Origin: an uncultured Lachnospiraceae bacterium
Lineage (GTDB): Bacteria; Bacillota; Clostridia; Lachnospirales; Lachnospiraceae
Length of the DNA: 38,780 nucleotides
NCBI GenBank assembly: GCA_949287925.1
Contig: CASEIR010000035.1
Coordinates: 1 to 38,780, forward strand
Direction of reading: 5' to 3'
A model generated the notes under the pieces. It made no database searches, was not told the origin of the DNA, and saw only the letters and a list, made by a program, of their open reading frames with translations. Made by a program: the position numbers and the translations under genes. Of this stretch, positions 4,601 through 33,410 are shown piece after piece; position 1 is the first letter of the stretch, and each line of letters opens with the position of its first letter.

Positions 4601-5245
4601 CTATTTTGACTGATCGGCCCACGGATCCGCAATGCCGTCGTAATATACTACATTTTCTGACAATATCTCCAATCTTCCACCCTGAACCAGGACTTCCGTT
4701 ACGGCACAGTTCTTATGTACGCCAGTTCCCCAGTAATCCGCCAGCAACGTGCCTTTGATATTGCATAGGATTCCAGCCAGTGCCGCTCCGTGAGTGACTA
4801 TCAGCACATGTGAATCTTCCGGCAGTGAATGGCTGCAGATATCCGCAAGAAATTCTCCGGTTCTTCTCTTCACATCCACAAAGTTTTCTCCTCCCTCCGG
4901 CGCACGGTACTGCTCCGGATGATCGAAGAAATTGTGAAATTCTTCCGGCAATTCCCAGCCTTCTTTCGAACAGCACTTCCCTTCATATTTCCCAAAGGCC
5001 ATTTCTATGATCCTTGGTTCTTTGATGATCTGTATTTTTCGTTTTCCTACTATCAGCTCAGCCGTTTCCCTCGCCCGGATCAGCGGGCTGGAATAACACA
5101 GATCAAAGGGAATGTCTTTTAGTCCTTCAGCCGTCTTCTTCGCAAGTTGCCGTCCTGTTTCATTCAGAGGAATATCCACCTGCCCCTGGATCCGCTTCTC
5201 GCTGTTCCAGTCTGTAATCCCATGTCTTACTAAATATAGCTTCAT
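4601..5245 (-). CDS. Histidine phosphatase (phosphoglycerate mutase-like) family protein
   Basis: A 214-residue branch-1 histidine phosphatase. It begins KLYLVRHGITDWN with the catalytic RHG motif (His8), followed by the conserved IQGQVDIPLNETGRQLA block and the second His in LIVTHGAAL. Such proteins are broad phosphatases or metabolic mutases; alpha-ribazole phosphatase (CobC-like) and generic phosphatases look alike, so the substrate is undetermined. The start has TAGGAGGCGGGAT before ATG. It is the first gene of a probable operon with trpS. Confidence 0.88.
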   Translation of the reverse strand: MKLYLVRHGITDWNSEKRIQGQVDIPLNETGRQLAKKTAEGLKDIPFDLCYSSPLIRARETAELIVGKRKIQIIKEPRIIEMAFGKYEGKCCSKEGWELPEEFHNFFDHPEQYRAPEGGENFVDVKRRTGEFLADICSHSLPEDSHVLIVTHGAALAGILCNIKGTLLADYWGTGVHKNCAVTEVLVQGGRLEILSENVVYYDGIADPWADQSK

Positions 5246-5357
5246 ATCCCGCCTCCTAACATACGAAGTAAGTATAACATATCTTTTTCGATTTTACATA
5301 GTAAATTCACAGGAAAACTGTTATAATTGTCCTATCAACAAACAGGAGAATGACATT
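5246..5357. promoter_or_regulatory. Divergent promoter region of the phosphatase-trpS operon and luxS
   Basis: A TATAAT at 5322-5327 (plus) lies 30 bases before the luxS start. A TATACT (minus, 5271-5276) faces the phosphatase gene. Neither has a convincing -35 at 16-18 bases, so both are tentative. No riboswitch was recognised. Confidence 0.4.
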
Positions 5358-5831
5358 ATGGAAAAAATTAAAAGCTTTACCGTTGACCATCTGCGTCTGG
5401 TACCTGGACTGTATGTTTCCCGGATTGATTATGTGGAAGGACATCCTGTCACTACTTTCGATATCCGGATGACCAGCCCCAATGACGAACCGGTGATGAA
5501 CACAGCTGAGATCCACACCATCGAACACCTGGCAGCCACATTCTTAAGAAACCATCCGGATTATGCATCCCGGACGATTTATTTCGGCCCTATGGGCTGT
5601 AGGACCGGTTTTTATCTGATTCTTTCCGGAGAATATTCTTCTTTCGATATCGTACCGCTGATGAAGGAAATGTATGCTTTTATTGCGGATTACGAAGGCG
5701 AAGTACCCGGTGCATCCGCAAAAGACTGCGGAAATTATCTGGACATGAATCTTCCTATGGCCAAATACATTGCAAAAAAGTATTTGAATATACTGAACAC
5801 AATCACACCGTCTCAGCTCATTTATCCTTAA
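5358..5831 (+). CDS. luxS: S-ribosylhomocysteine lyase
   Basis: LuxS cleaves S-ribosylhomocysteine to homocysteine and 4,5-dihydroxypentane-2,3-dione, the AI-2 precursor. The ATG at 5358 (MEKIKSFTVDHL) has AGGAG 9 bases upstream and gives the standard size of 157 aa. The metal-binding HTIEH motif is near residues 53-57 and the third ligand Cys is in KDCGNY near residue 121. PMGCRTGFY, with the catalytic Cys, is intact. It is monocistronic and convergent with the NRPS operon. MetAA further along the window belongs to the same methionine/homocysteine economy. An AI-2 signalling role cannot be concluded. Confidence 0.97.
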   Translation: MEKIKSFTVDHLRLVPGLYVSRIDYVEGHPVTTFDIRMTSPNDEPVMNTAEIHTIEHLAATFLRNHPDYASRTIYFGPMGCRTGFYLILSGEYSSFDIVPLMKEMYAFIADYEGEVPGASAKDCGNYLDMNLPMAKYIAKKYLNILNTITPSQLIYP

Positions 5832-5841
5832 GTTCATGGAA

Positions 5842-5869
5842 GAGGAGCGCCGTCTCAGGGCTGCTCCTC
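5842..5869. terminator. GC-rich hairpin shared by luxS and the NRPS operon
   Basis: Inverted repeat GAGGAGC / GCTCCTC with a 14-base spacer lies between the convergent luxS and ACP stops and overlaps the last ACP codons. It lacks a strong T tract on either strand, so it is a tentative bidirectional terminator. Confidence 0.45.
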
Positions 5870-6112
5870 CTCTATCAGCTTGTTCTCTATAATATACTCG
5901 ACCACATCTTTTATCTGCATCATATTCTTTACTTCGCGCAGATTTACTTCTATCTGAAATCTATTTTCAAACTCACAGACTAAATTAGCCAGATCCATCG
6001 AATTCAATGCCAGATCACGGACGAATTCCGTATCCATAGTAATCTTTTCAACCCCGATTACGTCGCGGATAATCTCTTCTACATTTCGAAATACTTGCTC
6101 ATCCACAATCAT
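5855..6112 (-). CDS. Discrete acyl carrier protein of the NRPS operon
   Basis: An 85-residue acidic helical carrier protein. The phosphopantetheine site is DLALNSMDLANL, with Ser38 in the L-x-S-x-D-L context (an N replaces the more common D/G before Ser). The start overlaps the end of the ligase gene (ATGA) and has a strong AAGGAGG site, so translation is coupled. In known lipopeptide systems such a stand-alone ACP receives an acyl group from an acyl-AMP ligase and presents it to the starter condensation domain. That is the inferred role here. It is the last gene of the five-gene operon. A phosphopantetheinyl transferase is not in the window. Confidence 0.9.
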   Translation of the reverse strand: MIVDEQVFRNVEEIIRDVIGVEKITMDTEFVRDLALNSMDLANLVCEFENRFQIEVNLREVKNMMQIKDVVEYIIENKLIEEEQP

Positions 6113-7752
6113 TCTGCCTCCTTACGCTTGATCTTTTTTATTGCTGTTTTCTTAAACTCTGTTTCAGACAGTTTGACAGACAGTATCCGCTTATAGTCTG
6201 GCAATGTCATATTTAACTTGTTGATCTCATCTTGAAGAAGATCCAGAACCTGATAATTATCCCGCGCATCCATATATTCTTCATCCACACAGACCATAGC
6301 AGAAAGCATTACATCGTCTCCGGCCTCTCCCACAACAGCTCCATATACCATGACTTCTTTCACAAAAGGAATCTTCTGGATATATCCTTCCAATTCCTCC
6401 GGCACGACCTTTTTCCCACTGTTAAATACGATCAGGTTCTTTTTTCTTCCGCAGATATACAGATGCCCTTTCCGGTCCATATATCCAATATCACCAGTCC
6501 GATACCATCCATGGTCAAAACATTCTTCTGTCAACAGCATATTTTTATAGTACTCTTTAAAAACAGACGGCCCTTTTACCAGAATCTCTCCATCATCAAA
6601 CCGGATCCGCGTCTGCGGGATCGGTCTCCCCACCGACTCTAAAACATTATCTTCATTCTGGTTACTGCTGATCAAAGGACTGCACTCTGTAATTCCGTAA
6701 CCCTGGAACACTTGTATCCCGTAAACTTGAAATTCTTCAGCGATTTTTTCATTCATCTGCGCCCCGCCACAGGTAATCATCTTCAGATCATTCCCCACGA
6801 TCTGATCAATTTTACTGTCTTCAAATATCCTTCGGCACCATTTCCATATAATTGTCCTTTTGTATCTTTCGACCGCTTTTCTTGCTTTTGCCCTCACTCC
6901 TTCCCTTTCCTGTATTCTATGAAGCTCTTTCAGAAGATTTTCCAGTATCATAGGTACGCAGATGAGGACCTCCGGTTGAAAAGCTTTCAGATCCCGGAAA
7001 AATGTCTTTAAATTTCCATTCAGACAGATGGTATTCCCTTGTGTGATAGAATTCAAAACACCGCAAACCAAAGAATATGTATGATAAAGGGGAAGGGGAT
7101 CGAACAGCTTTTTCTTTGCTTTAATCAGCGATTGTGTATGGCAGGCATTAAACATGATATTATACTGCGTAAGCACAACCGGTTTCGATGTGTTCGTTGT
7201 TCCTGATGTATATACGATTGCCAGCACATCCTCCGGATCTGCCGCAGGCAGTCCTAGTTCTTTGCTATTCTTTTTCTTTCTCCCCTCCTCCAGCAAATAC
7301 TGAATGCTCCATCCGGCGGCTGTTGTTTTCTGATTCATTATAATACACGGTATTTTTAATACAGAAAACGCTTGAGAAAACACCTGATCTGTCGCCACAT
7401 AAAGGGCATCCGCATGACGGGCCATCCGCACCATCTCTTTTTCACTGTTTTCAATATCAATCGGGATCACAGTACATCCAACCAGCCCCGCCGCACAAAA
7501 CACAAGCACCCATTCATACGAATTCTGTCCGGCAATTGCAATATGCTTTCCGTTCATTTTTCTCTCACAGAAGCTATGCGCAAGCGCATAAACATCGTTC
7601 ACAAAATCCGGATACGATATCGTTCGTTCTTTGCCGTCTCGCTCATAAAACGTAAATGCCGTATCCGTGGAATACAACTGGCCAATCTCTCCGAAGCACT
7701 CCGTAAGTGTCTGATATTCTCTCACTTGATGATATTTGACATATTGCTTCAT
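6109..7752 (-). CDS. Fatty-acyl-AMP/acyl-ACP ligase (ANL superfamily)
   Basis: A 547-residue adenylate-forming enzyme when started at 7752 (MKQYVKYHQVREYQ), where AAGGTG lies upstream; the longer reading begins inside the preceding gene. Adenylation motifs in order: YTSGTTNTSKPVV (P-loop, around residue 185), GYGITECSPLIS, YRTGDIGYMDRKG and GRKKNLIVFNSGKKV, with a C-terminal Lys-rich end carrying TAIKKIKR. These activate a carboxylate as acyl-AMP. Given the adjacent ACP and the NRPS with an N-terminal condensation domain, the likely job is loading a fatty acid onto the ACP. The P-loop departs from the common GxxKG pattern (N and P replace the glycines). Chain length cannot be read from sequence. 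Confidence 0.9.
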   Translation of the reverse strand: MKQYVKYHQVREYQTLTECFGEIGQLYSTDTAFTFYERDGKERTISYPDFVNDVYALAHSFCERKMNGKHIAIAGQNSYEWVLVFCAAGLVGCTVIPIDIENSEKEMVRMARHADALYVATDQVFSQAFSVLKIPCIIMNQKTTAAGWSIQYLLEEGRKKKNSKELGLPAADPEDVLAIVYTSGTTNTSKPVVLTQYNIMFNACHTQSLIKAKKKLFDPLPLYHTYSLVCGVLNSITQGNTICLNGNLKTFFRDLKAFQPEVLICVPMILENLLKELHRIQEREGVRAKARKAVERYKRTIIWKWCRRIFEDSKIDQIVGNDLKMITCGGAQMNEKIAEEFQVYGIQVFQGYGITECSPLISSNQNEDNVLESVGRPIPQTRIRFDDGEILVKGPSVFKEYYKNMLLTEECFDHGWYRTGDIGYMDRKGHLYICGRKKNLIVFNSGKKVVPEELEGYIQKIPFVKEVMVYGAVVGEAGDDVMLSAMVCVDEEYMDARDNYQVLDLLQDEINKLNMTLPDYKRILSVKLSETEFKKTAIKKIKRKEAE

Positions 7753-7766
7753 ATTCCACACCTTTC

Positions 7767-9305
7767 TTATTCCTGAGCGCTTTCGTGAGTCCACTGAAGC
7801 CGCTCCGCAATGGTATCATAATCTTCCAGGACTTGCAAAAACAAGTCTACAAGCTGAGAATCAAATTGTGTCCCTTTTCCCTGTATCAATTCCTGTATGC
7901 TGCTTTCCAGCGACAATTTCTTCCGGTAATGCCGATCCGACATCATTGCATCAAAAGAATCAGCTATTGCGATCATCCTTGCTTCCTCCGGTATCTCCGT
8001 CCCTTTCAGACCGTTGGGATATCCTCCGCCATCATATCTCTCATGATGGGCGCAGACGACATCTCCTAGATTGTCAAACATTGTCATACAAGACAGAATC
8101 TGTTTGCCCATTTCCGGATGCCGTTTTATTACCGCGAATTCTTTTTCATCCAGACTTCCCGGTTTACACAGTATATTATCAGAAACGCCAATTTTTCCAA
8201 TATCGTGAAGCAGCCCCCCAATATGAATCCTCTGAATGTAATTCGTGTCTTTTCCTGCTTTTTTCGCCAGTTCTACCGCATAAAATGCCACGCGGTCGGA
8301 ATGCCCCCTGGTATACAGATCCTTTGCATCCACAAGAAGACGCATTGCCTCAACTGTCTGCATATAGCTTTCACGGATCTGTTGATTCGCTTCTTTAAGA
8401 CTTTTATTATTGGCGTTGATCATGGTCGTCAGGATATTGTTGTGAAGCGCGGTTGTAACCTGTTCAGAATATACGGCAAGCAAAGCTCGCAGTGTCGCGT
8501 CCATGTTCTCTTTTCGCTCCACACATATCATTCCAAGCACCACCTCACCACTCTTTAAAAGCGGGAGAAGCATCCACTCCTCATTGCACTGGATGACTTT
8601 TTCTTCCATCAGGTTTTGCACAATTTCTTTCATCTGACAATAATTTTCCGTCATAAACTGCCGGAAATTTTTGTGAAATATACCACTTCCCACAAATACA
8701 TCTGAATCCAGGCCAATCAGCGTACTATTGTTCACTGCTGCTTCTGGCCTGATCCATAAGAACCCATTCTCGCCTCCCACAAGTCTGAGATAATCATTCA
8801 GTATATTTCTGGAAGTCTCTTCGATCGGCATTGTCTGGTGCATCCTTGGTATAGCTGAAAGAATCTCGCTCAACCCTTGCTGATATCTGGATATCGTCCG
8901 TATCTGTTTGATGGATTTAACACAGCTTTCCACCAGAAGTTCCAGTTGGTCATATCTGTCGCTCTTTTCATAGTAACCTTGAATATCCAATTCCCGGATA
9001 GTATTCAGGGGAGGCGCCAGTTCTTTATGCCCTGTAAGCATAATGACAAAAGTCCGGTCATCAAACTCTCTTAATCTGGACACGACCACATCCCCGCAGA
9101 TCGGCTGCATAATGAAATCTAAAAGCAAAATATCATAATGCATCTGGTGCATTCTTTCCAATGCTTTTAAAGGATCATTCTGTGTTTCCACCCAATATCC
9201 CAAAGCATTAAAATTCTGTTTCAGGGCATCCAGAATATAGATATCATCATCCAATATCATAATGGTGTACCCATTCTTTTCTCTTCCTGTCTTATTTTTC
9301 CGCAT
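7767..9305 (-). CDS. HD-GYP response regulator (probable c-di-GMP phosphodiesterase)
   Basis: A 512-residue three-part protein. Residues 14-125 are a receiver domain with acidic pocket MILDDD, phosphoacceptor Asp63 (LLLDF), Thr91 and Lys114. Residues about 160-295 look like a GAF-type sensor fold. A coiled linker (about 296-325) leads to an HD-GYP domain (about 325-505) with GHSDR, GGLLHDIGKIG (HD 367-368) and HHERYDGGGYP (420-430). All metal ligands and the GYP motif appear intact, so c-di-GMP hydrolysis is expected from family knowledge. There is no DNA-binding domain. The gene lies 17 bases after the kinase gene and has its own GAGGTT site, so kinase and regulator are a natural cognate pair. 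Confidence 0.93.
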   Translation of the reverse strand: MRKNKTGREKNGYTIMILDDDIYILDALKQNFNALGYWVETQNDPLKALERMHQMHYDILLLDFIMQPICGDVVVSRLREFDDRTFVIMLTGHKELAPPLNTIRELDIQGYYEKSDRYDQLELLVESCVKSIKQIRTISRYQQGLSEILSAIPRMHQTMPIEETSRNILNDYLRLVGGENGFLWIRPEAAVNNSTLIGLDSDVFVGSGIFHKNFRQFMTENYCQMKEIVQNLMEEKVIQCNEEWMLLPLLKSGEVVLGMICVERKENMDATLRALLAVYSEQVTTALHNNILTTMINANNKSLKEANQQIRESYMQTVEAMRLLVDAKDLYTRGHSDRVAFYAVELAKKAGKDTNYIQRIHIGGLLHDIGKIGVSDNILCKPGSLDEKEFAVIKRHPEMGKQILSCMTMFDNLGDVVCAHHERYDGGGYPNGLKGTEIPEEARMIAIADSFDAMMSDRHYRKKLSLESSIQELIQGKGTQFDSQLVDLFLQVLEDYDTIAERLQWTHESAQE

Positions 9306-9322
9306 CCGAATTCAACCTCTCA

Positions 9323-11137
9323 TTATTTGTCGGCTTTTTCCGGTAAAGATACAAAAAAAGTAACACCTTTCTCCGGATTATTTACAAACCACATCTTGCC
9401 GCCGAATTTTCCTTTGATAATCTCTTCAGAACTATACAATCCCAGACCTGTTCCGTTAATTCCTTTTGATGTATACATGGTTCGGAATAATTTATTTTCG
9501 GCGTCATCCGGAATCCCGCATCCGGAATCACATACCGACAGAATCACCTGGCCCGTTTCCCTGTACGCGCGAAGAATAATATCCCCTCCGCCGTTTTCCA
9601 TTGCATCACATGCATTGTCAACCAGGTTATTCAAAACCTGTACAAGGTTATTGATATCTCCGTTAATTACATCCTGGTCAGACAGTTCATTCTGTATAAC
9701 CAGACGGCATCCGTTTTTTACCAGCTTACTTTTCAGAAACATCTGTACCCGCTTTAATACTTCCGATATTGGAAACTCACTTTCAGATAATGTACTCAGA
9801 TTTGCAGCCATGCCTTTTACTGTAGTAATGATATCAGACATATAGGCGCAGCATTCTTTTGTTTTATTAAGCCATCCCGTCATCTCTTTGCATATCTCAT
9901 AATGATCTTCGATCGTAACCTCTGAATCTCCAATACTCAATCGGTATTCTTCTACCAGATTGTCCAGAGCTTTTACGTTACCTGAAATAGCCATAATCGG
10001 TGTTTTCAGATTATGTGATATACTCCCAATCATCTGCCCTAGTGAAATCAGCCGCTCTCTTTCCATCGCTCTGCTCAGATTCTGCTGTTTCTTCTGCAAT
10101 TCCTCTTTCAGCTGTGTTACATCACGGAACATGGCTATCACACCCACAATATGATGGCTCTGCACTACAGGCGTCAGTTCCACGGAATAGTAAATCTTCC
10201 CTTCCTGCGACAAAACAGGTTGTTCATAAGAAATTACATGTACAGACTGTTTGCACACATCAAAGAAATTCAGCAGGTTATAGATCACGTTTTTCTTACG
10301 TTCTTCCAGCTTCTCAACGAGCTCCTTCAGATAAACATTCGGCTTCATACCAAATTCTGCTCCAAACGCCATATCAAACACGGAATTGGAATAAACGATA
10401 CAGCTATCGGAAGAAAATATTACATATCCTTCAGAAATATTATCAACCATGTTTTGAATCGCCAGCGGTTTTATATTTAAAAAATTCAAATGATATACCG
10501 CTATTCCATGGAAAAGCAATGTAATCAGAAACGCCAGCGGAGTAGCCGCTATAGACAGATTCAGGATCTTTAATGTAACCAGCACATTCACCATCAGAGG
10601 AACAATAAGTCCCGTGATAAACAAAACAGCCTGAGCCGCCGTCCTCCCATGTCTGTTGATTGCCGCATAACGAAACATAATAAAAATTGCAACCAGACTG
10701 TAAAAATAATACTGTCCCCCAGACAGGAAAAACAACGGTCCATACGCCACCTCTGATGCATAAATCGAAAAATGTGTGTAAAAAAGATGATGGATCGGAT
10801 TCGTAAATGCAATTACAGCCGTAATTCCGGGCAAAACATACAACAGATAATAATATCCTGGAAGATGAGAGACATTTTTGGTAAATATAATGGACAAAAG
10901 CAACAGTGACACAACCATATATCCGGATGCACAGCATGTGAAAGCATCTGGTATCCACAGGTACTGCTTCGGGACGTACTGCATAACATTAACTCCCTCC
11001 AGCCATACCGCAAGACAACTCACTGAAAAAATATACAGTTTCTGTGATACCAGTAATTTCCCCTTTTTCAGGTTGATTAAGATAAAGAATATCAGGAATG
11101 AAACAAACACATCCATCAGGTGTCCTTCTACATTCAT
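9323..11137 (-). CDS. 7TM-PAS sensor histidine kinase
   Basis: The start at 11137 (MNVEGHLMDVF) is chosen because its ATG overlaps the NRPS stop (ATGA) and AGGGGG lies just upstream; the protein is 604 aa. About seven hydrophobic segments span residues 10-220, like the His_kinase_N_7TM sensor module. A PAS-like domain follows (about 228-345; NISEGYVIFSSDS). The dimerisation/phosphoacceptor helix has SHNLKTP (His375). The ATPase domain has the N box LNNLVDNACDAM, the G1 box CDSGCGIP and GTGLGL. A membrane-buried 7TM input suits a lipophilic ligand. With the NRPS directly upstream, that ligand could be its lipopeptide product (inference). The residue after the phosphoacceptor His is Asn rather than Glu/Asp. 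Confidence 0.93.
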   Translation of the reverse strand: MNVEGHLMDVFVSFLIFFILINLKKGKLLVSQKLYIFSVSCLAVWLEGVNVMQYVPKQYLWIPDAFTCCASGYMVVSLLLLSIIFTKNVSHLPGYYYLLYVLPGITAVIAFTNPIHHLFYTHFSIYASEVAYGPLFFLSGGQYYFYSLVAIFIMFRYAAINRHGRTAAQAVLFITGLIVPLMVNVLVTLKILNLSIAATPLAFLITLLFHGIAVYHLNFLNIKPLAIQNMVDNISEGYVIFSSDSCIVYSNSVFDMAFGAEFGMKPNVYLKELVEKLEERKKNVIYNLLNFFDVCKQSVHVISYEQPVLSQEGKIYYSVELTPVVQSHHIVGVIAMFRDVTQLKEELQKKQQNLSRAMERERLISLGQMIGSISHNLKTPIMAISGNVKALDNLVEEYRLSIGDSEVTIEDHYEICKEMTGWLNKTKECCAYMSDIITTVKGMAANLSTLSESEFPISEVLKRVQMFLKSKLVKNGCRLVIQNELSDQDVINGDINNLVQVLNNLVDNACDAMENGGGDIILRAYRETGQVILSVCDSGCGIPDDAENKLFRTMYTSKGINGTGLGLYSSEEIIKGKFGGKMWFVNNPEKGVTFFVSLPEKADK

Positions 11138-14100
11138 TCTGTTTCCCCCTCTGCAAAACATCTTCTCAATATCTCTGTTTCAGGCACCGGCCATCGGAAT
11201 CCCACATGTTCCAGTTCTTCTATTGTTTTTCTTACAGACAGGCGGATTTTGGCCGGTTTTAGTTCTCCGGAAAACCAGCTTTGCACTAGTGCCTGAATAT
11301 ACGGTGATTCTGAGTTTATTCCTGCCAGTTCTAACGCCGTCTCAAATTCATCATCAGAAACCATCCTTAGTTCTTTGCAGCTGCCAAGCAGCTGCACAAC
11401 AGAGACTTCGTTTGGATTGAATATGTGATAAGCTCCTCCCGTCTCCCCAGACAACAGATACACTGCTTTTGCTGCCGCGTCAACATAGGTAACTTCCATC
11501 GTTGTTTCACGCAGGCTTTCCGGAATCATCCCGAACTCCAGAATTCCCCGGATCAGACGATAATACGCATTGCTTTCTTTATTCCTCTGAAATTGCCCTG
11601 AATATGAATTGCAGACCAGCCGCCCGATGCGGAAGATTCTTGCATTCACGCCTTCTTTCTGCGCATCGGCAATCTCCGCTTCTGCCAGCATCTTACTTTT
11701 GGCGTATGGATTCTCCATCCAGTTCTGTCCGATGTCCATATCGGACTCTTCATAGATAACTTTCGCTCCAGGCGCATCTATCAGATACTCTCCAGCCACA
11801 CTGACCGTAGATATATGCATAAGCACTGCATTCGCTTCTCTTGCAAACCGTATGATCTCCTCCGTGCCTTTCACATTCGTATGAAGCAGTTCTTTTTCAG
11901 GCGCAAAATGGCGTACATCTGCAGCACAATGATAGATAACTTCCACCTGTCCGGCAAGTCTTCGGTATGTCTCCTCGTCGAGTCCCAGACACGGTTCCGT
12001 CACCTGCCCTGTCACAACTTCCACCTGGTCACAATGCAGATTCCAGTAATTCTGGCCAAAATACTCTGTCATGACTTCCGCCAGACGATTTCCCTCTCCC
12101 CGGACCAGACAATATATTTCTCTGCGTCCGCTGTCCAACAGCGTTTTTAATAGATAACTGCCAAAATAACCGGTTGCTCCGGTAAGAAGAACCGGCCCTT
12201 TTCCGCACAAGCTCCGCGGCTCGTCCAATACCTTTTCTGGTATGACCTTTTCCTTCTGCCGTTTCTTTTCCGACACCAGAACAACATTCTTTTGTCCACA
12301 TTCTCCGCACAAAATTCTTATTTGTTCGCTCAGCGCAGGATACCGGTAAAAGTCATTGATTGAAAACTCATAGTGTTTCTGATGATACTGATTCAGTATA
12401 ATAATCGCCGTCAAGGAGGTCCCCCCCTGCTGGAAAAACGAAACGTCCTCCAGCGGTTCTTTTCCAAGCACTTCACGCCAGATCTCCCGCAGGCAATGTG
12501 CGGCATCTCCGATCACATCTATATCTGTTTCGGATACCTCGTCCGCATTTCTTCGAATCCTGTCCGGATTCAGCTCAGCAAGAACATGCAGATCCGTTTT
12601 TCCACTTGCATTTCTTGGCATTTCATCCAACAGAATCAGTTCGGAGGGAATCATATAATCCGGAAGCTGTTGTACCAGATATTCCCTCAGTTCCGCTTCC
12701 CGATACCCTGTTTCCGGTACAAGAACTCCTCTTAAAAACCTGGGCATACCATCCTTCAAAATTGGAACAACTGCGGCCTCTTTTACATACGGCGACTGTG
12801 TCATTACCGTCGCAATCTCCACCGGTTCGATTCTGTGACCATTCAGTTTCAGCTGCGTATCCACTCTTCCAAGACATTGCCAGTTACCGTCTGCCCGCAT
12901 CCTTCCTATATCGCCGGTCCTATACATTTTTTCTCCCGGATTGATTCGATCTGCAATAAAAACCTGATCCGTCAGTTCTTTTTGATTGATATATCCCAAA
13001 GACAAACATTCTCCCGCTATATAGATCTCTCCCACCGCAGTCGGCGGAACTGGATTTTGGTTTTTGTCAAGCAGATAATACCTGCAATTGCCGATTGGTT
13101 TCCCGATATGAATACTGGATTCATTTCGGATCTCGCCCTGACAGTTATGCACCGACGTCTCCGTAGGGCCATAAATATTATAAATCTTTGCCTCCGTGAG
13201 GGAACAGAGATGTTTCTTCAATTCCATGGTCCACGGTTCTCCTAGCAGAATAATGGTTTTTATCTGTCTGAGACATGCACGGAACGTTTCATCATTCAGA
13301 CACATCAGGATCCGGGAAGGTGTCAGCTGCAATATCGTCACTTCATCCCTTTGTATTCTCTCTGCCATTTTCCAGGGAAGCATCATTTCTTCCTCATCGG
13401 CAACACTCACAGAATATCCCTTGGCAAGAGCCAGAATAGTTTCCGTTGTGAATACATCAAACACACAATTGGACGCACACAGGATTCTCTGCTCTTCGTC
13501 TCCAAGCAAAGGCTCCAGGTGAGCCGCCAGATTGGATAAGGATTTATGCAGCATCATTACACCTTTGGGCTTCCCCGTTGAGCCTGAAGTAAAGATAACA
13601 TTTGCCACATCCTCAGGACCGTTTACCGCCGGTATAACCATATCAGAAATCTCTTCTTTTCCCGCCTGGTATACCAGAATTTCCCCCTGGATCTCCTCCT
13701 TCAGCTCGATGTCTGATCCGCAGACTGTTATTTTCACCTCAGCCTGCCTTAGCATATAGAGTATTCTTTCTTTTGGGAATGCCGGATCAATCGGAACGTA
13801 AGCGGCGCCTGCTTTTAAGATGCCGAACATGATAACGGGCATATCACCGCTGCGCCTGATCATAAACGCTACTGTATCGCCTTTCCCGATTCCGCGCTCC
13901 GCCAGGCGGCGGGCAAGCACATTCGACCTTTCACTTAATTGCCGATATGTATAGCATTGTTTTTCCCCCCATACAACTGCAGTTTTGTCCGGATAGATCA
14001 AAGCCATATAATCCATCATACAATCCGTAGTTGTTGTGTCATAAGGTGTCCGTATACGGTTCGGGCGCTCCAGCAGCTCATACCTGTCACGAGGATCCAG

Positions 14101-17100
14101 AAGATCCAGTTTTTCTGGCATCTTTTCTGTATGCTCGAGTACAGACCTCAGCGTATGGATAAAACAACGGCTATAATACGCAATTGTCACCTCGTCAAAC
14201 ATGCTTCTGGCATACTCAAAATATAACCGATAATGACCCTTTTCTGAACATGCGGCTGCAAGATGCAGATCTACTTTCACAGCCTGTTCATCATCTGGAA
14301 GATATGTGAGCACTATATCGCCCATTCTGATTTCTTTCAGATCCGAGGGGGCCAATGAAAACATAATGCTGTAAATCGGATTTCGGTCTCTGCTGTGTTC
14401 CACATCCCGCATTTTCATCAATTCATCCAGAGAGATCTCCTGATGATCCATAATTCCAAAGACCATGTCTCTTACCCGATACAGATAATCCTGGTAAGAT
14501 TCATCCTGCCGTATTGAGATAAATACAGGCAATGTATGTATAAAAACGCCTGTCATCTGTTCTAGCCCCGGATGTCTTCGCCCGGAAAACGGCGATCCGA
14601 TCACTACAGAATCCTCTCCTGAAAAAGAGCTGACCATAACTCCAAATACGCTCAGCAAAGTTATGTAAGGAGTCACCTTAAACTTTTGACAAAATTCAGG
14701 AAGTTTTTTGTCCAGATCTTCCGGCAGCTCAAACTCATATCTGCCTCCCCTGCCATCAAACACAGAGGGTCTTGGTCTGTCGGTCGGGAATTCCACCGGC
14801 CTGATTTTATCAGGAAGCATATCTTCCCAGTACATCTTGTTCTTATCGGCTTCTTTGGATTGACGTTCATGAATCCACCATGCATAATCCGTATAACTTA
14901 GATCCGGCAGATTATATTCCACATTCTCATACTGCTTTTTTAACCGTTCAAGAATCATCTGGCTGCTGATCCCGTCAGATATAATATGATGCATGTCTAT
15001 CAGTATATAATGTCTATTATTCTGATCTTTTGCTACTGCCGCACGGATCAGAGGCGCCTTTCCAATGTCGAATGGACGGACAAACTGTGACAGAGCGTCT
15101 TTAATCTCCGCGCAATCTATATGCTCAAGTTTAAAAGGAACTTCCTCATGTACTACCGCAATGATCTGTCCGTCCCGGATCGTAAATTCTGTGCGCAGCT
15201 GCTCATCTTCCTGAATCATGCGTTGAAACATCTTCTCCAGACGTTCTTCATCCAGCTCTTTTTCTGACAGAAAAGCTCCCGGCATATTATAACTTCTTCT
15301 TGTTTCATCAAGATTATGCATGACAAAAAATCCAGTCTGCACAGGTGTCGCCGGATACCACTCCCGGCATTTAGCTCTCGGAATAAAATGACCGGCTCCG
15401 GTTTCTTTTACTGCAGATCCCCGCAGCTGATTTCCAAATCTGCGGATTGTACTGTTGACATATAATTCCTGTACAGAAACCGTCTTTCCAAACTCGCGCT
15501 CCACCTCTGTCAGCATAAACACCGCATTCAGCGAATTCCCGCCTGACAGGAAATAATCGGAATGAACTCCCAGCTCCTCCCTTTCCAGAATCTTTTTCCA
15601 GATGCGAAGCAGTGTTTCTTCCGTTTCATCCGCAGGGTTCTCCTGCATATCCGGAATATCCGGCGCTGGCAATCTCGCATAGTCGATTTTCCCATTTGCT
15701 GTAACCGGCATTTCTTCAACCTGACAAGCACAGACCGGAAGCAGATATCTTGGAAGATATTCTGCTCCATATGTCAGAATTTCATCCGGATCTATCTGTT
15801 CAGACGCTGAATAGTAGGCAATCAGCTGTGCGTTCTCACCATCTCCGTAAAGACTTGCCACACATTGAGATACCAGAGGATGTCCTGCCAGAACATTCTC
15901 GATCTCTGCCAGTTCAATCCGATGTCCTAATACTTTCACCTGATTATCATTACGGCCAAGATAAACAATTTTCCCATCACAGGTCCATTTCCCCATATCT
16001 CCTGTCCGGTAAAGAACCTGCCCGCTTACGAAGGGATCTTCCACAAATTTTTCTCTGGTAAGTTCCGAGCGGTCATGGTAGCCTTTTGCCAAACATTCTC
16101 CTCCAATATATAATTCACCGGCCACATTAACCGGAAGCGGATGCATATTTTCATCCAGAATATAAATCCGGCAGTTTGCCAGAGGCTTGCCAATCGTAAT
16201 CTGCCCTTTTCCATTCACAACCGTATGGCTGACTGCTACGGTAGCTTCTGACGGTCCGTACTGATTGTACAAAGATGCGGCTGTATAGTCCCGCAGCTTA
16301 AAAAACAGATCGGGCGGCATCGTTTCCCCACCGCAGACAATTGTTTCCAAATGAGGAAGCGCATGGCGGAAGTCATGATCTTTCAGGTAAGCCGAAAGCC
16401 TGGATGGTGTAAGCGCCATGAAGCCAACATCATATTCTGTAATCAGTCTTCCTATTTCGCGCGGATGTATCATCTCCCTTTCACTGGCCAGCACGATGGT
16501 GGCGCCATTCAGCAACGCAATCATACTTTCCAACAAAAACGCATCAAAACTCACATTACAAATAGACAGCACTGCTCCTTTTGGATACAATCCTGTCATA
16601 ATTCCAGCCAGATTCATAACACTCTTCTGTTCAACTTCCACAGCTTTTGGCTTTCCGGTAGTTCCTGAAGTATATACCAGATATGCAAGACGGTCAGCGG
16701 TGATATCCGGAAGTTCCATATCCTCCTGCGCACTTAACAACGTTTCTGCATTAACAGCACATATTCCCGGTTCAGCATCTTCCCAGTGTCTCATAAACCC
16801 TGGATTCGTTCCGGTAATACACACAATAGCCTGCGAATCCCTCAATAGTTCCTGGATTCGTTCTTCTGGCTGCTCTGGATCTATCAGCAGCCATGAATAT
16901 CCGGCGAATGCGCTGGCACACATCATCACCAATAATTTCTCCGATCTGGGGAGCATGATTGCCACAGTTCCTTCTGTCTTCCCTGTATAAAGAACCATAT
17001 TTCTCGCAGCCTGCTCTGCCTGCGAGATCAGCGTTTCATAACAAACCCTCTGATTGTCAAAAATAACCGCCGCACGATTCGGATATGACAGGCTTATGCT

Positions 17101-18522
17101 TTTCAGACGCTGTGCAATTGTCTGCTTTCTGTCAAACCAGGTGTCTGTTTTATTAAAATCAAAAACTACTTTTTCTTCCTCTTCCTCATAAAGCAAAGTT
17201 AATTCTGCAAGCGGCGTATTCGGATGACATAATCCTTCTTTTAGTATTTTTACAAGACGGTGATGCAATTCTTCGATCTCATTTTCCGAAAATATCTGTG
17301 TCAGATAATCGTAATCTACTACAAACTGCCCGTCTTCATCACGATTGCTTAGATGAATGCACAAGGTTTCACTTTGATATCCGCTGTAGATCCATCTTCC
17401 TTCAAGGGTAACATGCGCTCCTCTTAAATGATCCATTTTCCCATTCTGATAAGATAAAGCTATTTCAAACAACTGATCCGGAACCACTTCTTTATCCGCT
17501 GCCGCCAGCCTTTTAATATCTTCAAAAGGAATTCTTTGATGATAAAGCAGGGCAAACCAGTCATCCTTTAATTTTTCATTAAATTCATTCCAGGTAAACT
17601 GAATATCCAGTTCATTGACAAAGGGCAGCGTATTTACAAACATACCGCCCGTTTTCTTTTCTCTGTGGTTCAGCCTGTTAATCGTCGGTACACCAATACA
17701 GAACCTTTTCTGCCCGCGGATTCTTCTAAGATATACTGCAAGTCCCATATAAAATACTGCAAACGGAGATACTTTTTCCTTCTCGCAGTACGCTACAATC
17801 AATCGATTCAGCCGATTGGGCAGCAGATATGAACGTCTCAGGCCTACCGGACTGATATGTGCGCACTGATACTCCTTTGCAAGCGCAGGAGGAATATCCT
17901 GAAGCTGCTTTGCCCAGTATGTCTTATCACGCTCATAAGATTTGGAAAGTAAATATTTTTGTTCCGCTTCTATATGTAATTTATAATCTGGAACAACCTG
18001 ACAATCCGTCTCCTGTCCTTTTAAAAGCTGAAAATAATTATGTATAATATGATTTGTCACGAGAGCATGCGACCATGCATCGGCAACAATATGATGCACT
18101 CTGGTCAAGATGCCGCCCGAATGATCTGAAAGCTTAAATATGATCATCTGACAAAGCATGGAATCGCACAACACAAAGTGTTCACGCGCGACAGATTGAT
18201 ACCAGATCTGAATTCCTTTTTCATTAGTTCCTGAAAAGTCATAATATTCTGCTCTTTCCGGAATTTCTTTCGAAATATATTGATACGGTTTTCCATTTCG
18301 CACAGTGATTCTTGTCCGCAGTGTAGGGAACGCCCGATATGCCAATTTGACACACGTCTGCAAATATTCTACATTCAGATTCCCTTCTATTTTAAGTGCT
18401 GTACAAATATTATTCATCGGAAGTCCTGAATACACACGTTCCAGATTCCAAATATTCTGCTGGCTGTACGACAAAGGAAACCATTCTGTGTTTTCCTGTT
18501 CTTCTATACTATGCATTTCCAT
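11134..18522 (-). CDS. Two-module NRPS with terminal reductase (C-A-T-C-A-T-R)
   Basis: A 2462-residue nonribosomal peptide synthetase. C1, about 10-440: HHIVADA at 143-149, with Ala at the usual Gly. A1, about 465-950: YTSGTTGKPKAV near 617, NQYGPSEA, YRTGD, catalytic Lys945 in TANGKID. T1: GGNS with Ser997. C2, about 1050-1480: canonical HHIISDG at 1178-1184. A2, about 1500-1980: FTSGSTGKPKGV, NIYGPTET, Lys1975. T2: GGTS with Ser2036. Reductase, about 2105-2462: NAD(P)-binding TGATGYFG, then ST (2238-2239) and NPYAKSK (Tyr2273, Lys2277). From alignment by eye to the GrsA pocket, A1 reads D-A-L-A-V-G-Q-V-A-K and A2 D-V-T-Q-I-L-I-V-H-K. Neither matches a code I can assign. An N-terminal C domain plus the ligase and ACP suggests an N-acylated dipeptide, released reductively as an aldehyde (or alcohol). 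This is the architecture of gut clostridial dipeptide-aldehyde/pyrazinone synthetases. It is the first gene of the five-gene operon. Confidence 0.95.
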   Translation of the reverse strand: MEMHSIEEQENTEWFPLSYSQQNIWNLERVYSGLPMNNICTALKIEGNLNVEYLQTCVKLAYRAFPTLRTRITVRNGKPYQYISKEIPERAEYYDFSGTNEKGIQIWYQSVAREHFVLCDSMLCQMIIFKLSDHSGGILTRVHHIVADAWSHALVTNHIIHNYFQLLKGQETDCQVVPDYKLHIEAEQKYLLSKSYERDKTYWAKQLQDIPPALAKEYQCAHISPVGLRRSYLLPNRLNRLIVAYCEKEKVSPFAVFYMGLAVYLRRIRGQKRFCIGVPTINRLNHREKKTGGMFVNTLPFVNELDIQFTWNEFNEKLKDDWFALLYHQRIPFEDIKRLAAADKEVVPDQLFEIALSYQNGKMDHLRGAHVTLEGRWIYSGYQSETLCIHLSNRDEDGQFVVDYDYLTQIFSENEIEELHHRLVKILKEGLCHPNTPLAELTLLYEEEEEKVVFDFNKTDTWFDRKQTIAQRLKSISLSYPNRAAVIFDNQRVCYETLISQAEQAARNMVLYTGKTEGTVAIMLPRSEKLLVMMCASAFAGYSWLLIDPEQPEERIQELLRDSQAIVCITGTNPGFMRHWEDAEPGICAVNAETLLSAQEDMELPDITADRLAYLVYTSGTTGKPKAVEVEQKSVMNLAGIMTGLYPKGAVLSICNVSFDAFLLESMIALLNGATIVLASEREMIHPREIGRLITEYDVGFMALTPSRLSAYLKDHDFRHALPHLETIVCGGETMPPDLFFKLRDYTAASLYNQYGPSEATVAVSHTVVNGKGQITIGKPLANCRIYILDENMHPLPVNVAGELYIGGECLAKGYHDRSELTREKFVEDPFVSGQVLYRTGDMGKWTCDGKIVYLGRNDNQVKVLGHRIELAEIENVLAGHPLVSQCVASLYGDGENAQLIAYYSASEQIDPDEILTYGAEYLPRYLLPVCACQVEEMPVTANGKIDYARLPAPDIPDMQENPADETEETLLRIWKKILEREELGVHSDYFLSGGNSLNAVFMLTEVEREFGKTVSVQELYVNSTIRRFGNQLRGSAVKETGAGHFIPRAKCREWYPATPVQTGFFVMHNLDETRRSYNMPGAFLSEKELDEERLEKMFQRMIQEDEQLRTEFTIRDGQIIAVVHEEVPFKLEHIDCAEIKDALSQFVRPFDIGKAPLIRAAVAKDQNNRHYILIDMHHIISDGISSQMILERLKKQYENVEYNLPDLSYTDYAWWIHERQSKEADKNKMYWEDMLPDKIRPVEFPTDRPRPSVFDGRGGRYEFELPEDLDKKLPEFCQKFKVTPYITLLSVFGVMVSSFSGEDSVVIGSPFSGRRHPGLEQMTGVFIHTLPVFISIRQDESYQDYLYRVRDMVFGIMDHQEISLDELMKMRDVEHSRDRNPIYSIMFSLAPSDLKEIRMGDIVLTYLPDDEQAVKVDLHLAAACSEKGHYRLYFEYARSMFDEVTIAYYSRCFIHTLRSVLEHTEKMPEKLDLLDPRDRYELLERPNRIRTPYDTTTTDCMMDYMALIYPDKTAVVWGEKQCYTYRQLSERSNVLARRLAERGIGKGDTVAFMIRRSGDMPVIMFGILKAGAAYVPIDPAFPKERILYMLRQAEVKITVCGSDIELKEEIQGEILVYQAGKEEISDMVIPAVNGPEDVANVIFTSGSTGKPKGVMMLHKSLSNLAAHLEPLLGDEEQRILCASNCVFDVFTTETILALAKGYSVSVADEEEMMLPWKMAERIQRDEVTILQLTPSRILMCLNDETFRACLRQIKTIILLGEPWTMELKKHLCSLTEAKIYNIYGPTETSVHNCQGEIRNESSIHIGKPIGNCRYYLLDKNQNPVPPTAVGEIYIAGECLSLGYINQKELTDQVFIADRINPGEKMYRTGDIGRMRADGNWQCLGRVDTQLKLNGHRIEPVEIATVMTQSPYVKEAAVVPILKDGMPRFLRGVLVPETGYREAELREYLVQQLPDYMIPSELILLDEMPRNASGKTDLHVLAELNPDRIRRNADEVSETDIDVIGDAAHCLREIWREVLGKEPLEDVSFFQQGGTSLTAIIILNQYHQKHYEFSINDFYRYPALSEQIRILCGECGQKNVVLVSEKKRQKEKVIPEKVLDEPRSLCGKGPVLLTGATGYFGSYLLKTLLDSGRREIYCLVRGEGNRLAEVMTEYFGQNYWNLHCDQVEVVTGQVTEPCLGLDEETYRRLAGQVEVIYHCAADVRHFAPEKELLHTNVKGTEEIIRFAREANAVLMHISTVSVAGEYLIDAPGAKVIYEESDMDIGQNWMENPYAKSKMLAEAEIADAQKEGVNARIFRIGRLVCNSYSGQFQRNKESNAYYRLIRGILEFGMIPESLRETTMEVTYVDAAAKAVYLLSGETGGAYHIFNPNEVSVVQLLGSCKELRMVSDDEFETALELAGINSESPYIQALVQSWFSGELKPAKIRLSVRKTIEELEHVGFRWPVPETEILRRCFAEGETE

Positions 18523-18557: not shown

Positions 18558-18642
18558 ATTATATTATATATCAACCAAATTGATAGCGCCAGTCAATTGT
18601 ATAATTCAAAATAGGGAAATTTTTCCATATAATTATACAATT
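18558..18642 (-). promoter_or_regulatory. Promoter and candidate operator of the NRPS operon
   Basis: Two overlapping TATAAT boxes (18558-18563 and 18563-18568, minus strand) precede the NRPS. TTGACT (18591-18596) is the only -35-like hexamer but stands 22-27 bases away, too far for ordinary sigma-A. The spacer holds an inverted repeat TATCAA-N5-TTGATA (18569-18585). Upstream are two copies of AATTRTAYAATT, at 18595-18606 and 18631-18642, in perfect inverted orientation. Each is itself nearly palindromic and their centres are 36 bp apart. The near copy overlaps the TTGACT. This suggests regulated transcription by a dimeric regulator at paired sites. An AU-rich RNA hairpin is the alternative. 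Confidence 0.55.
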
Positions 18643-19166
18643 TCAACTTGACATATTTTCATAGCTTCCAATGCATTTTTATGCGCATTTACCGAGGTCC
18701 CAGCGCAGCATTCTGAATCAACAATAATACGTATCTCCGGTAGGACCATTTTCAGATAAAGGGCATTGGATATCACACATATATCCGTGCACACCCCAAT
18801 CAATGTAACAGACTCTATTCCGCTTTCTCCGGACTTTTTTAATTCTTCATCCTTATGTATCAGAATCCGGCCCAGTTCAATACTTCCAAACGTTCCTTTA
18901 TCTACCGCTTCACACTCTCTTAATGCATCAATTTCCGGACGAATCTCCCATCCCCAGGTGCCTTTGATACAGTGTTTAACCGGCAGCTTTCTTCCTTCCT
19001 GTGTTTCCAGGTATTCTTCGCCATGCGTATCTCTTGTAAAAAAGACACAGCCGTCAAAACCTCTGATCTTTTCCACCACATCTGGTATAATGGCAACCGC
19101 TTCATCGGTTCCCAACGCACCGTCTATGAAATCATTCTGCATATCCACAACTATCAATACATTCAT
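18633..19166 (-). CDS. Nicotinamidase-like cysteine hydrolase (isochorismatase superfamily)
   Basis: A 177-residue protein when started at 19166 (MNVLIVVDMQNDFIDGAL), where GGAGG is correctly placed. The catalytic triad is visible: Asp in VVDMQNDF, Lys in VDKGTFGS and Cys in GVCTDICV. The metal-binding His/Asp residues of nicotinamidases appear in TRDTHGEEY and VKHC. It most resembles PncA-like enzymes that deamidate nicotinamide to nicotinate, but related amidases cannot be excluded. It ends 110 bases before the NRPS start on the same strand. The NRPS operator arm overlaps its stop codon. The content suggests NAD salvage rather than NRPS chemistry. Confidence 0.85.
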   Translation of the reverse strand: MNVLIVVDMQNDFIDGALGTDEAVAIIPDVVEKIRGFDGCVFFTRDTHGEEYLETQEGRKLPVKHCIKGTWGWEIRPEIDALRECEAVDKGTFGSIELGRILIHKDEELKKSGESGIESVTLIGVCTDICVISNALYLKMVLPEIRIIVDSECCAGTSVNAHKNALEAMKICQVEIV

Positions 19167-19236
19167 CCTGCAATCCTCCATGAAACCTAACATAATAAAC
19201 CTTTTATAACATTATATAGCATATAAAAGCAGAAAA

Positions 19237-33119: not shown

Positions 33120-33410
33120 ATAAAAAAACCGTCCCAAACCCTAAGGTTTGAGACGGTAATATAAACATATTATCGCGGTACCACTCAAATTGACGAATCG
33201 TCCACTTTCTCATGTACTAACATACACTCCTGATTGATAACGGGTTCGGTTCCCGACATACCATACTCTCATACGATTTCAGGCAGCCCTCAAAAGTCCA
33301 TTCGCCTGTCAGATCCATACGACAATCCCACCATCTGCCGCTCTCTGTAATTTCTCAATGATAAGCTACTCTTCTTTCTCAACGGTTTATTTATATAATT
33401 TACATTTCTT
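33120..33410 (-). ncRNA. T-box riboswitch, probable tryptophan specifier
   Basis: A minus-strand leader of about 290 bases. The T-box core GAGTGGTACCGCG is at 33174-33186. It is followed by the terminator (stem 33128-33140 / 33145-33157, loop of 4, then seven T) and preceded by Stem I features (AGAGAGC, GATGGTGGGATTG). In the segment GGCGAATGGACTTTTGAG the specifier position reads UGG (33300-33298), the tryptophan codon. Uncharged tRNA-Trp would stabilise the antiterminator and turn on the importer. The specifier was placed by context, not by a folded model. Confidence 0.92.

Follow-up and report, generated by a model that had tools for sequence, protein, structure and literature searches.

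A 38,780-base contig of an uncultured Lachnospiraceae bacterium (C35; GenBank CASEIR010000035.1, analysed at its full length and here called the window; assembly 2.2 Mb, 83.6% complete, 6.4% contaminated) carries on its minus strand, from 18522 to 5855, a five-gene operon in which a nonribosomal peptide synthetase (NRPS) is followed by a sensor histidine kinase, an HD-GYP response regulator, an acyl-activating enzyme and an acyl carrier protein (ACP). We consider it fairly probable that this operon is a self-contained small-molecule signalling system, in which the NRPS product would be sensed by the neighbouring kinase with hydrolysis of a cyclic dinucleotide as the output. The acyl-activating enzyme and ACP would supply an acyl chain that the NRPS would join to two amino acids, and reductive release would most likely give an N-acyl dipeptide aldehyde; this product is predicted because the NRPS has a leading condensation domain and a terminal reductase domain and is accompanied by acyl-activating and ACP genes. 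The small lipopeptide, probably an aldehyde, would then leave the cell (no exporter has a fixed place in the operon) and bind the neighbouring kinase in its seven-transmembrane (7TM) or 7TM/PAS part. Phosphate would pass from the kinase to the regulator, a pairing that is suggested by their linkage, and the HD-GYP domain, in which the motifs are present, would hydrolyse cyclic di-GMP (c-di-GMP) or a similar dinucleotide. Cell density or confinement would thereby be turned into a second-messenger change of putative direction.

A preliminary description of this DNA had recognized five same-strand genes with touching or nearly touching ends, and all five open reading frames (ORFs) and their Pfam domains were confirmed at those positions (C, condensation; A, adenylation; T, thiolation; R, thioester reductase; REC, receiver):

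11134..18522, minus strand: NRPS, 2462 aa, C-A-T-C-A-T-R (Pfam), with GATGYFG at 2115 and YAKSK at 2273 in the R domain
9323..11161, minus strand: sensor histidine kinase, 612 aa as listed, 7TM-PAS-HNLKTP-HATPase_c (Pfam, AlphaFold2 model); likely start ATG 11137
7767..9305, minus strand: response regulator, 512 aa, REC (D63)-DUF3369-HD-GYP (HDIGK, HHERYDGGGYP) (Pfam, motifs)
6109..7794, minus strand: acyl-activating (AMP-forming) enzyme, 561 aa as listed (Pfam); likely start ATG 7752
5855..6112, minus strand: free-standing ACP, 85 aa (Pfam PP-binding); serine in LALNSMDL by eye

The close spacing of the genes also stood. Both revised starts come from alignment with homologues together with the DNA: that of the kinase overlaps the NRPS stop as ATGA, and that of the acyl-activating enzyme lies 14 bp past the regulator gene. 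The kinase and regulator genes are 17 bp apart, and the acyl-activating and ACP genes overlap by 4 bp.

The NRPS has two Condensation, two AMP-binding and two PP-binding domains and one NAD_binding_4 (R) domain in Pfam, with the order C-A-T-C-A-T-R complete within one protein; its best NCBIfam match is the AusA aureusimine synthetase model NF047350, at 1157.6 bits and below the cut-off of 2500. The kinase matches HisKA_7TM and HATPase_c, with HisKA under its cut-off, and no PAS domain was named in it by Pfam. An AlphaFold2 model (29 sequences including that of the window; mean pLDDT, the predicted local confidence, 81.9; pTM, the predicted template-modelling score, 0.46) predicts seven helices in residues 9-225, then strands and helices in a PAS-like arrangement at 245-347, with the kinase core after it. 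The 7TM-PAS architecture proposed earlier therefore holds, the 7TM part by Pfam and the PAS-like fold from the model. The 50 Foldseek matches listed were kinases, photoreceptors and kinase domains by description and were uninformative on the 7TM part. The protein ends with HATPase_c and has no receiver or Hpt match in Pfam, hence it is not a hybrid kinase. The regulator matches Response_reg, DUF3369 and HD_5, with no DNA-binding domain found by Pfam, and the acyl-activating enzyme and ACP match AMP-binding plus AMP-binding_C_3 and PP-binding respectively.

Synthase and kinase travel together. In 240 genomes of the same family, where the kinase and NRPS searches scored first-look candidates (usually five and two per genome), the kinase was found at E ≤ 1e-20 in seven. 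The NRPS search at 1e-60 matched 38 genomes, seven of which score at least 1544 bits (38-100% identity; next best 574); these are the same seven genomes, with the two genes adjacent, a coincidence that would have a probability of 1.2e-13 if the genes were independent and shared descent is ignored. The five genes keep a single order in all seven (in L032 the acyl-activating gene is split into two overlapping ORFs), and receiver D63 is kept in all seven aligned regulators. HisKA_7TM gave eight matches across seven genomes, of which seven are the operon kinase. Because the regulator search matched 177 of the 240 genomes, with mostly the HD-GYP part alone covered among the matches listed, HD-GYP proteins are common and it is the gene combination that is special. 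The two genomes of the same genus in the sample gave weak NRPS matches only (best 2e-44 and 5e-49), and neither a kinase nor an HD-GYP regulator was seen in the stretches read around other NRPS genes of this family and order (L020-L024, L164-L170). L019 pairs a one-module C-A-T-R enzyme with a kinase of another sensor type and has no HD-GYP gene in its stretch.

A search of species genomes with an alignment of the seven kinases confirmed at least 551 relatives, the best 80 of which were analysed (the named loci). In 78 of these best 80 the gene immediately preceding the kinase, on the same strand, encodes an NRPS (median gap 3 bp, 31 overlapping), and the other two, L105 and L107, are contig edges. 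An HD-GYP regulator is directly downstream in 73 of the 80; where an NRPS-linked named locus has a downstream receiver gene, that gene carries HD-GYP in 72 of 73 cases, the remaining one being cut by the contig end. The acyl-activating gene comes right after the regulator in 54 of the 80, with 10 undecidable. In the kinase tree (81 rows), Lachnospiraceae and Oscillospiraceae are intermingled, and Erysipelotrichaceae (Holdemania), Christensenellaceae and one Coriobacteriia metagenome-assembled genome are present as well.

The linkage was also seen in a class sample of 391 genomes, 44 of which match the kinase alignment at 1e-90; 49 matches gave 47 loci, two lying inside stretches already fetched for neighbours. 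An NRPS is directly upstream in 26 of these loci and absent in 16, and five are contig edges; the HD-GYP gene is directly downstream in 17 of the 26. The kinase is identical to that of a named locus in five of the seven family loci and in four class-sample loci, and the three sets overlap. In the converse NRPS search of this sample, the ORFs judged were those of 2478-2567 aa and the one-module matches, with G371 the only longer NRPS included. Seven of the eight two-module matches (2478-2567 aa, window excluded) adjoin a kinase. An HD-GYP gene comes immediately after the kinase in five of these seven and not in the other two, L122 and L150; G429 (27% identity) has neither kinase nor HD-GYP gene beside its NRPS. 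For the one-module matches, G427 and G449 are kinase-linked and G501 is not; none was seen for G508 or the multi-module G371 (L176).

Together the 78 named and 26 class-sample loci make up 104 NRPS-linked kinases, two loci being shared. Phospho-acceptor histidine and receiver aspartate are both present in the neighbouring pair, and with duplicates removed HNL[KR][TS]P occurs in 97 of 104 NRPS-linked kinases (HNLKTP in the window). The HD-GYP regulators of NRPS-linked loci have HHExxxGxGYP in 89 of 89 and HDxGK in 88 of 89; L038, L063, L041, L066, L085, L117, L120, L124 and L125 were left out of these motif counts.

The preliminary description had held that a functional link would be weak if homologous NRPS loci generally lacked the kinase-regulator pair, or if the pair were found equally often away from NRPS genes. 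The first is untrue of the close clade, where the pair is in seven of seven family loci and class-sample matches have the kinase in seven of eight and HD-GYP in five, and true of other NRPS loci including L166. The second is untrue of the close kinase family, with 78 of 80 linked, yet the class sample has its 16 NRPS-less loci, three of them with HD-GYP. Its interpretation, that the product is sensed by the producer, has thus largely withstood both possibilities and is overall partly supported.

The kinase core and HD-GYP regulator recur across changing synthase types, as kinase-linked NRPSs may be C-A-T-C-A-T-R, C-A-T-R, C-A-T with a domain of the 9e4s type, C-A-T-TE (TE, thioesterase) or, in L112, C-A-T without a release domain. 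One-module C-A-T-R enzymes are mostly paired with a second kinase type that has the same core and no 7TM match, L161 being an exception. Such a change of sensor type would be more readily explained by a sensor that reads the product, and this variation of synthase and sensor circumstantially suits a product-reading receptor. Adenylation codes were taken as nine positions by motif with GrsA numbering and an assumed tenth (K), and no amino acid was named; the duplicates L038, L063, L041, L066 and L085 were left out here and from the flank clustering below. One motif for the first A domain, composed after the codes were seen, fits 46 of 52 two-module loci. In the same 46 loci the second A domain shows 21 codes; a single position can take as many as six letters, and positions admit more letters than in the first domain. 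A second code varying more than the first across clades would suit a family of related signals.

A separate observation concerns the release step. In the one-module NRPSs (1431-1447 aa) of L121, L126, L128 and L175, a C-terminal 9e4s/PigE-like reductase-type domain, resembling the solved structures 9e4s/9e4x, replaces the usual R domain. Of the two contig-edge ORFs, that of L107 hits 9e4s, an entry deposited under the name amino acid adenylation domain protein, at 1.3e-73, and that of L105 gives the same weak PigE-type match. L175 also fits a profile that was built without it, from L105, L107 and the C-terminal ends of L121, L126 and L128.

Several operons hold further parts of cyclic dinucleotide signalling. 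GGDEF matches occur in all seven family genomes. Where at least 1000 bases are available upstream of the NRPS (55 named loci), a same-strand GGDEF gene precedes it by 15-99 bp in 12; in G201 (a 93% complete genome) this is the sole GGDEF match. L058 encodes a 7TM-PAS-GGDEF protein (6057-7604, plus strand) just past the regulator, the same receptor type joined to a diguanylate cyclase. In L135 (8294-13930, minus strand) an N-terminal PilZ-containing region (RxxxR...DISTSG) is fused to a C-A-T-TE NRPS beside a 7TM kinase and an HD-GYP regulator, and c-di-GMP may act directly on this synthase. The PilZ-containing stretch shares 28-30% identity along its length (E to 4e-70) with a 543-aa protein, the gene for which takes the place of the NRPS directly upstream of the 7TM kinase/HD-GYP pair in L131 (4176-5807, minus strand), L132 (3854-5485, plus strand) and L133 (3147-4778, plus strand); no Pfam match was obtained for this protein at 0.001 (L131 tested). 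Motility was considered as an output and dropped, as flagellin matches were found in two of the seven family genomes and not in that of the window.

The regulator itself appears to have been remodelled. Distance matrices were compared for 48 loci with a complete C-A-T-C-A-T-R NRPS, 7TM kinase and regulator (L038, L063, L041, L066, L085 and L117, as duplicates, and the class sample were set aside), and divergence correlates with that of the kinase core at r 0.89 for the receiver and 0.47 for the HD-GYP part. Regulators occur both with DUF3369 and as a short form. Exchange of one HD-GYP for another is the simplest explanation, because the receiver, unlike the HD-GYP part, has diverged in step with the kinase core, and both regulator forms exist; the HD-GYP part was thus probably swapped during evolution.

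Flanking genes were clustered in 82 loci (ORFs of at least 90 aa; names by eye with few Pfam tests). A phosphopantetheinyl transferase-like cluster occurs in 27 of the 82 just past the ACP position and in four upstream (e.g. L055 8198-9316, GNAT-fused; Pfam for L055 only), with no member in the window. A BTAD-type regulator cluster is found in nine of the 82, eight upstream (e.g. L089 401-1639) and that of L036 downstream (Pfam for L089 only); the C-terminal part of the L089 protein resembles a degenerate GGDEF domain by eye. A conserved ORF of 135-142 aa lies downstream in the GGDEF-bearing clade (six of 82 loci, e.g. L078 15431-15859, plus strand; no Pfam match for L078). ORFs resembling ABC transporters form a cluster in 12 of 82 loci (recognized by eye; two members in the window by Pfam); they occur at scattered positions on either strand and were left outside the operon. 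An opposite-strand cluster in 13 loci probably consists of shadow ORFs of the acyl-activating gene, judging by position. The preliminary description had proposed c-di-GMP breakdown rather than gene activation as the output: its c-di-GMP half is strengthened by the GGDEF and PilZ parts in some operons, and its exclusion of gene activation is tentative, given the BTAD-type cluster.

A number of results weigh against the signalling interpretation. The more distant kinases without an NRPS limit the linkage: of the 16 NRPS-less loci among the 47 in the class sample, L131-L133 keep the HD-GYP regulator, seven have a neighbouring 203-208-aa receiver protein, five consist of paired kinases and one stands alone. 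An HD-GYP gene directly downstream is missing from one of the 78 NRPS-linked named loci and nine of the 26 class-sample loci, 10 of the 104 combined, and the acyl-activating gene does not come right after the regulator in 16 of the 80 named loci. L166, of the same family, has a C-A-T-C-A-T-R NRPS with ACP and acyl-activating genes (4986-15659, minus strand) without kinase or regulator in 19.9 kb. The first A domain is itself not uniform, with 19 distinct codes in the 46 loci, albeit of close letters (one to four per position). Co-divergence of sensor and synthase looked strong in the 48 loci and faded once five distant loci were removed; beyond the kinase core, the remaining 43 loci give a partial r of 0.18 for the 7TM part with the second A domain (1/500 permutations) and 0.18 for the receiver with the first (7/500), so that the sensor is not singled out. 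Because all but one of the 12 upstream GGDEF genes belong to loci of a single 13-row kinase clade (its other two rows, L090 and L091, are cut before that point, and L065 stands apart), this gene represents about two gains and not twelve. PilZ was matched in only three of the seven family genomes, and a c-di-GMP-I riboswitch in two of the seven and by none of the operons, the other c-di-GMP class having been sought in the window only. The best solved match of the HD-GYP domain is a 3',3'-cyclic GMP-AMP (cGAMP) phosphodiesterase, followed by a metal-dependent phosphohydrolase and then a cyclic di-GMP phosphodiesterase.

The chief rival explanation is that the kinase responds to a cue from the host or the surroundings and controls, through c-di-GMP, the timing of production or activity of the NRPS product, which would be an effector such as a protease inhibitor and not the ligand; we regard this as rather unlikely. 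Sensor kinases often govern biosynthetic clusters, and the NRPS-less relatives show that this sensor can serve other ends. The PilZ-NRPS fusion of L135 would let c-di-GMP act on a synthase, which fits the signalling interpretation too, and BTAD-type genes are present in nine of 82 loci. Gut peptide aldehydes have also been described as protease and proteasome inhibitors (PMC8518294). Against these points stand a regulator without a Pfam DNA-binding domain, operons without a c-di-GMP-I riboswitch beside them, and a kinase core that follows several synthase types while the sensor type changes for one-module C-A-T-R loci.

Another possibility, which we think improbable, is feedback or self-protection, in which the kinase would read its own reactive aldehyde, through accumulation or membrane damage, and lower c-di-GMP as a stress response. 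The R domain does predict aldehyde release and the sensor is membrane-embedded, but no detoxification-, efflux- or protease-like family recurs at a fixed flank place in the 82 loci (ORFs of at least 90 aa), and thioesterase-ended synthases, from which no aldehyde is expected, carry the same kinase. Plain co-inheritance of a kinase/regulator pair functionally unrelated to the product is very improbable: operons can hold unrelated genes and the pair is missing from some related NRPS loci, but the linkage is retained with NRPSs as little as 27% identical, across several families and into a second phylum, while the synthases change.

Other features of the window have less bearing on the operon. 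An isochorismatase-family gene on the same strand (18633-19193) ends 110 bp upstream and was excluded from the operon because it has no relative in the flanks of the other loci. A luxS gene (S-ribosylhomocysteinase, the autoinducer-2 synthase; 5112-5831, plus strand; Pfam 1.7e-61) is convergent with the operon, its ORF ending 23 bp from the last gene, and this closeness is likely a coincidence. A T-box leader (33146-33391, minus strand; Rfam RF00230, 101 bits) has no relation to the operon. For ribosomal peptide quorum sensing of the Agr or ComQXPA kind, no pro-peptide or processing Pfam match was found in the window genes scanned, and short pro-peptides were not sought in the flanks.

Among known systems, the nearest in logic is the Rpf/diffusible signal factor (DSF) system of Xanthomonas, in which RpfF synthesizes a signal for the sensor RpfC and c-di-GMP is broken down by RpfG, a REC-HD-GYP protein; the genes for synthase, kinase and regulator lie in one cluster together with that for a fatty acyl-CoA ligase (PMC6337780). 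The operon likewise has a REC-HD-GYP regulator with its catalytic motifs. However, its synthase is an NRPS, whereas RpfF is a putative enoyl-CoA hydratase, for which no Pfam match was found in the operon or the neighbours scanned; its kinase is a plain 7TM-PAS protein, whereas RpfC is a hybrid; and many of the regulators here have DUF3369. By analogy, the operon would follow Rpf/DSF logic with an unrelated synthase and kinase. On the side of the product, AusA, the aureusimine/phevalin NRPS of Staphylococcus, is also a reductase-ended two-module enzyme, reportedly without a leading C domain. Free dipeptide aldehydes can cyclise to pyrazinones, whereas an N-acyl product, as predicted for this operon, should not. 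The pyrazinone signals autoinducer-3 (AI-3) and 3,5-dimethylpyrazin-2-ol (DPO) are likewise small and amino-acid-derived, and derive from threonine via Tdh (PMC13220807). The gut dipeptide-aldehyde NRPSs, of ruminopeptin and relatives, share reductase-ended dipeptide synthesis and the predicted product class, and no kinase or HD-GYP link is mentioned for them in the text covered (PMC8518294). A literature search, mainly of titles and the beginnings of abstracts, found no published description of an NRPS-kinase-HD-GYP operon, and an earlier notice is possible.

More tentatively, and with less confidence than we place in signalling by this operon, we propose that these loci may form a large anaerobe family of nonribosomal quorum-sensing systems, each with its own lipopeptide (mostly aldehyde) signal, a dedicated receptor kinase and a c-di-GMP hydrolase. 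The second A domain would set the 'dialect', release and receptor sensor domains would have been exchanged together, and GGDEF and PilZ parts would have been added, making this a second, independently built solution to Rpf/DSF logic. L166 offers a natural comparison for the signalling idea, and among named strains Blautia parvula, Faecalicatena contorta and Holdemania filiformis are suited to the question. The exact function of naturally occurring monoketopiperazines, cyclised relatives of such products, is called elusive (PMC12153313). The product of this operon is a candidate ligand class for HisKA_7TM receptors, and the tightly linked putative receptor kinase suggests a direct role for the peptide aldehydes of the gut, namely signalling.

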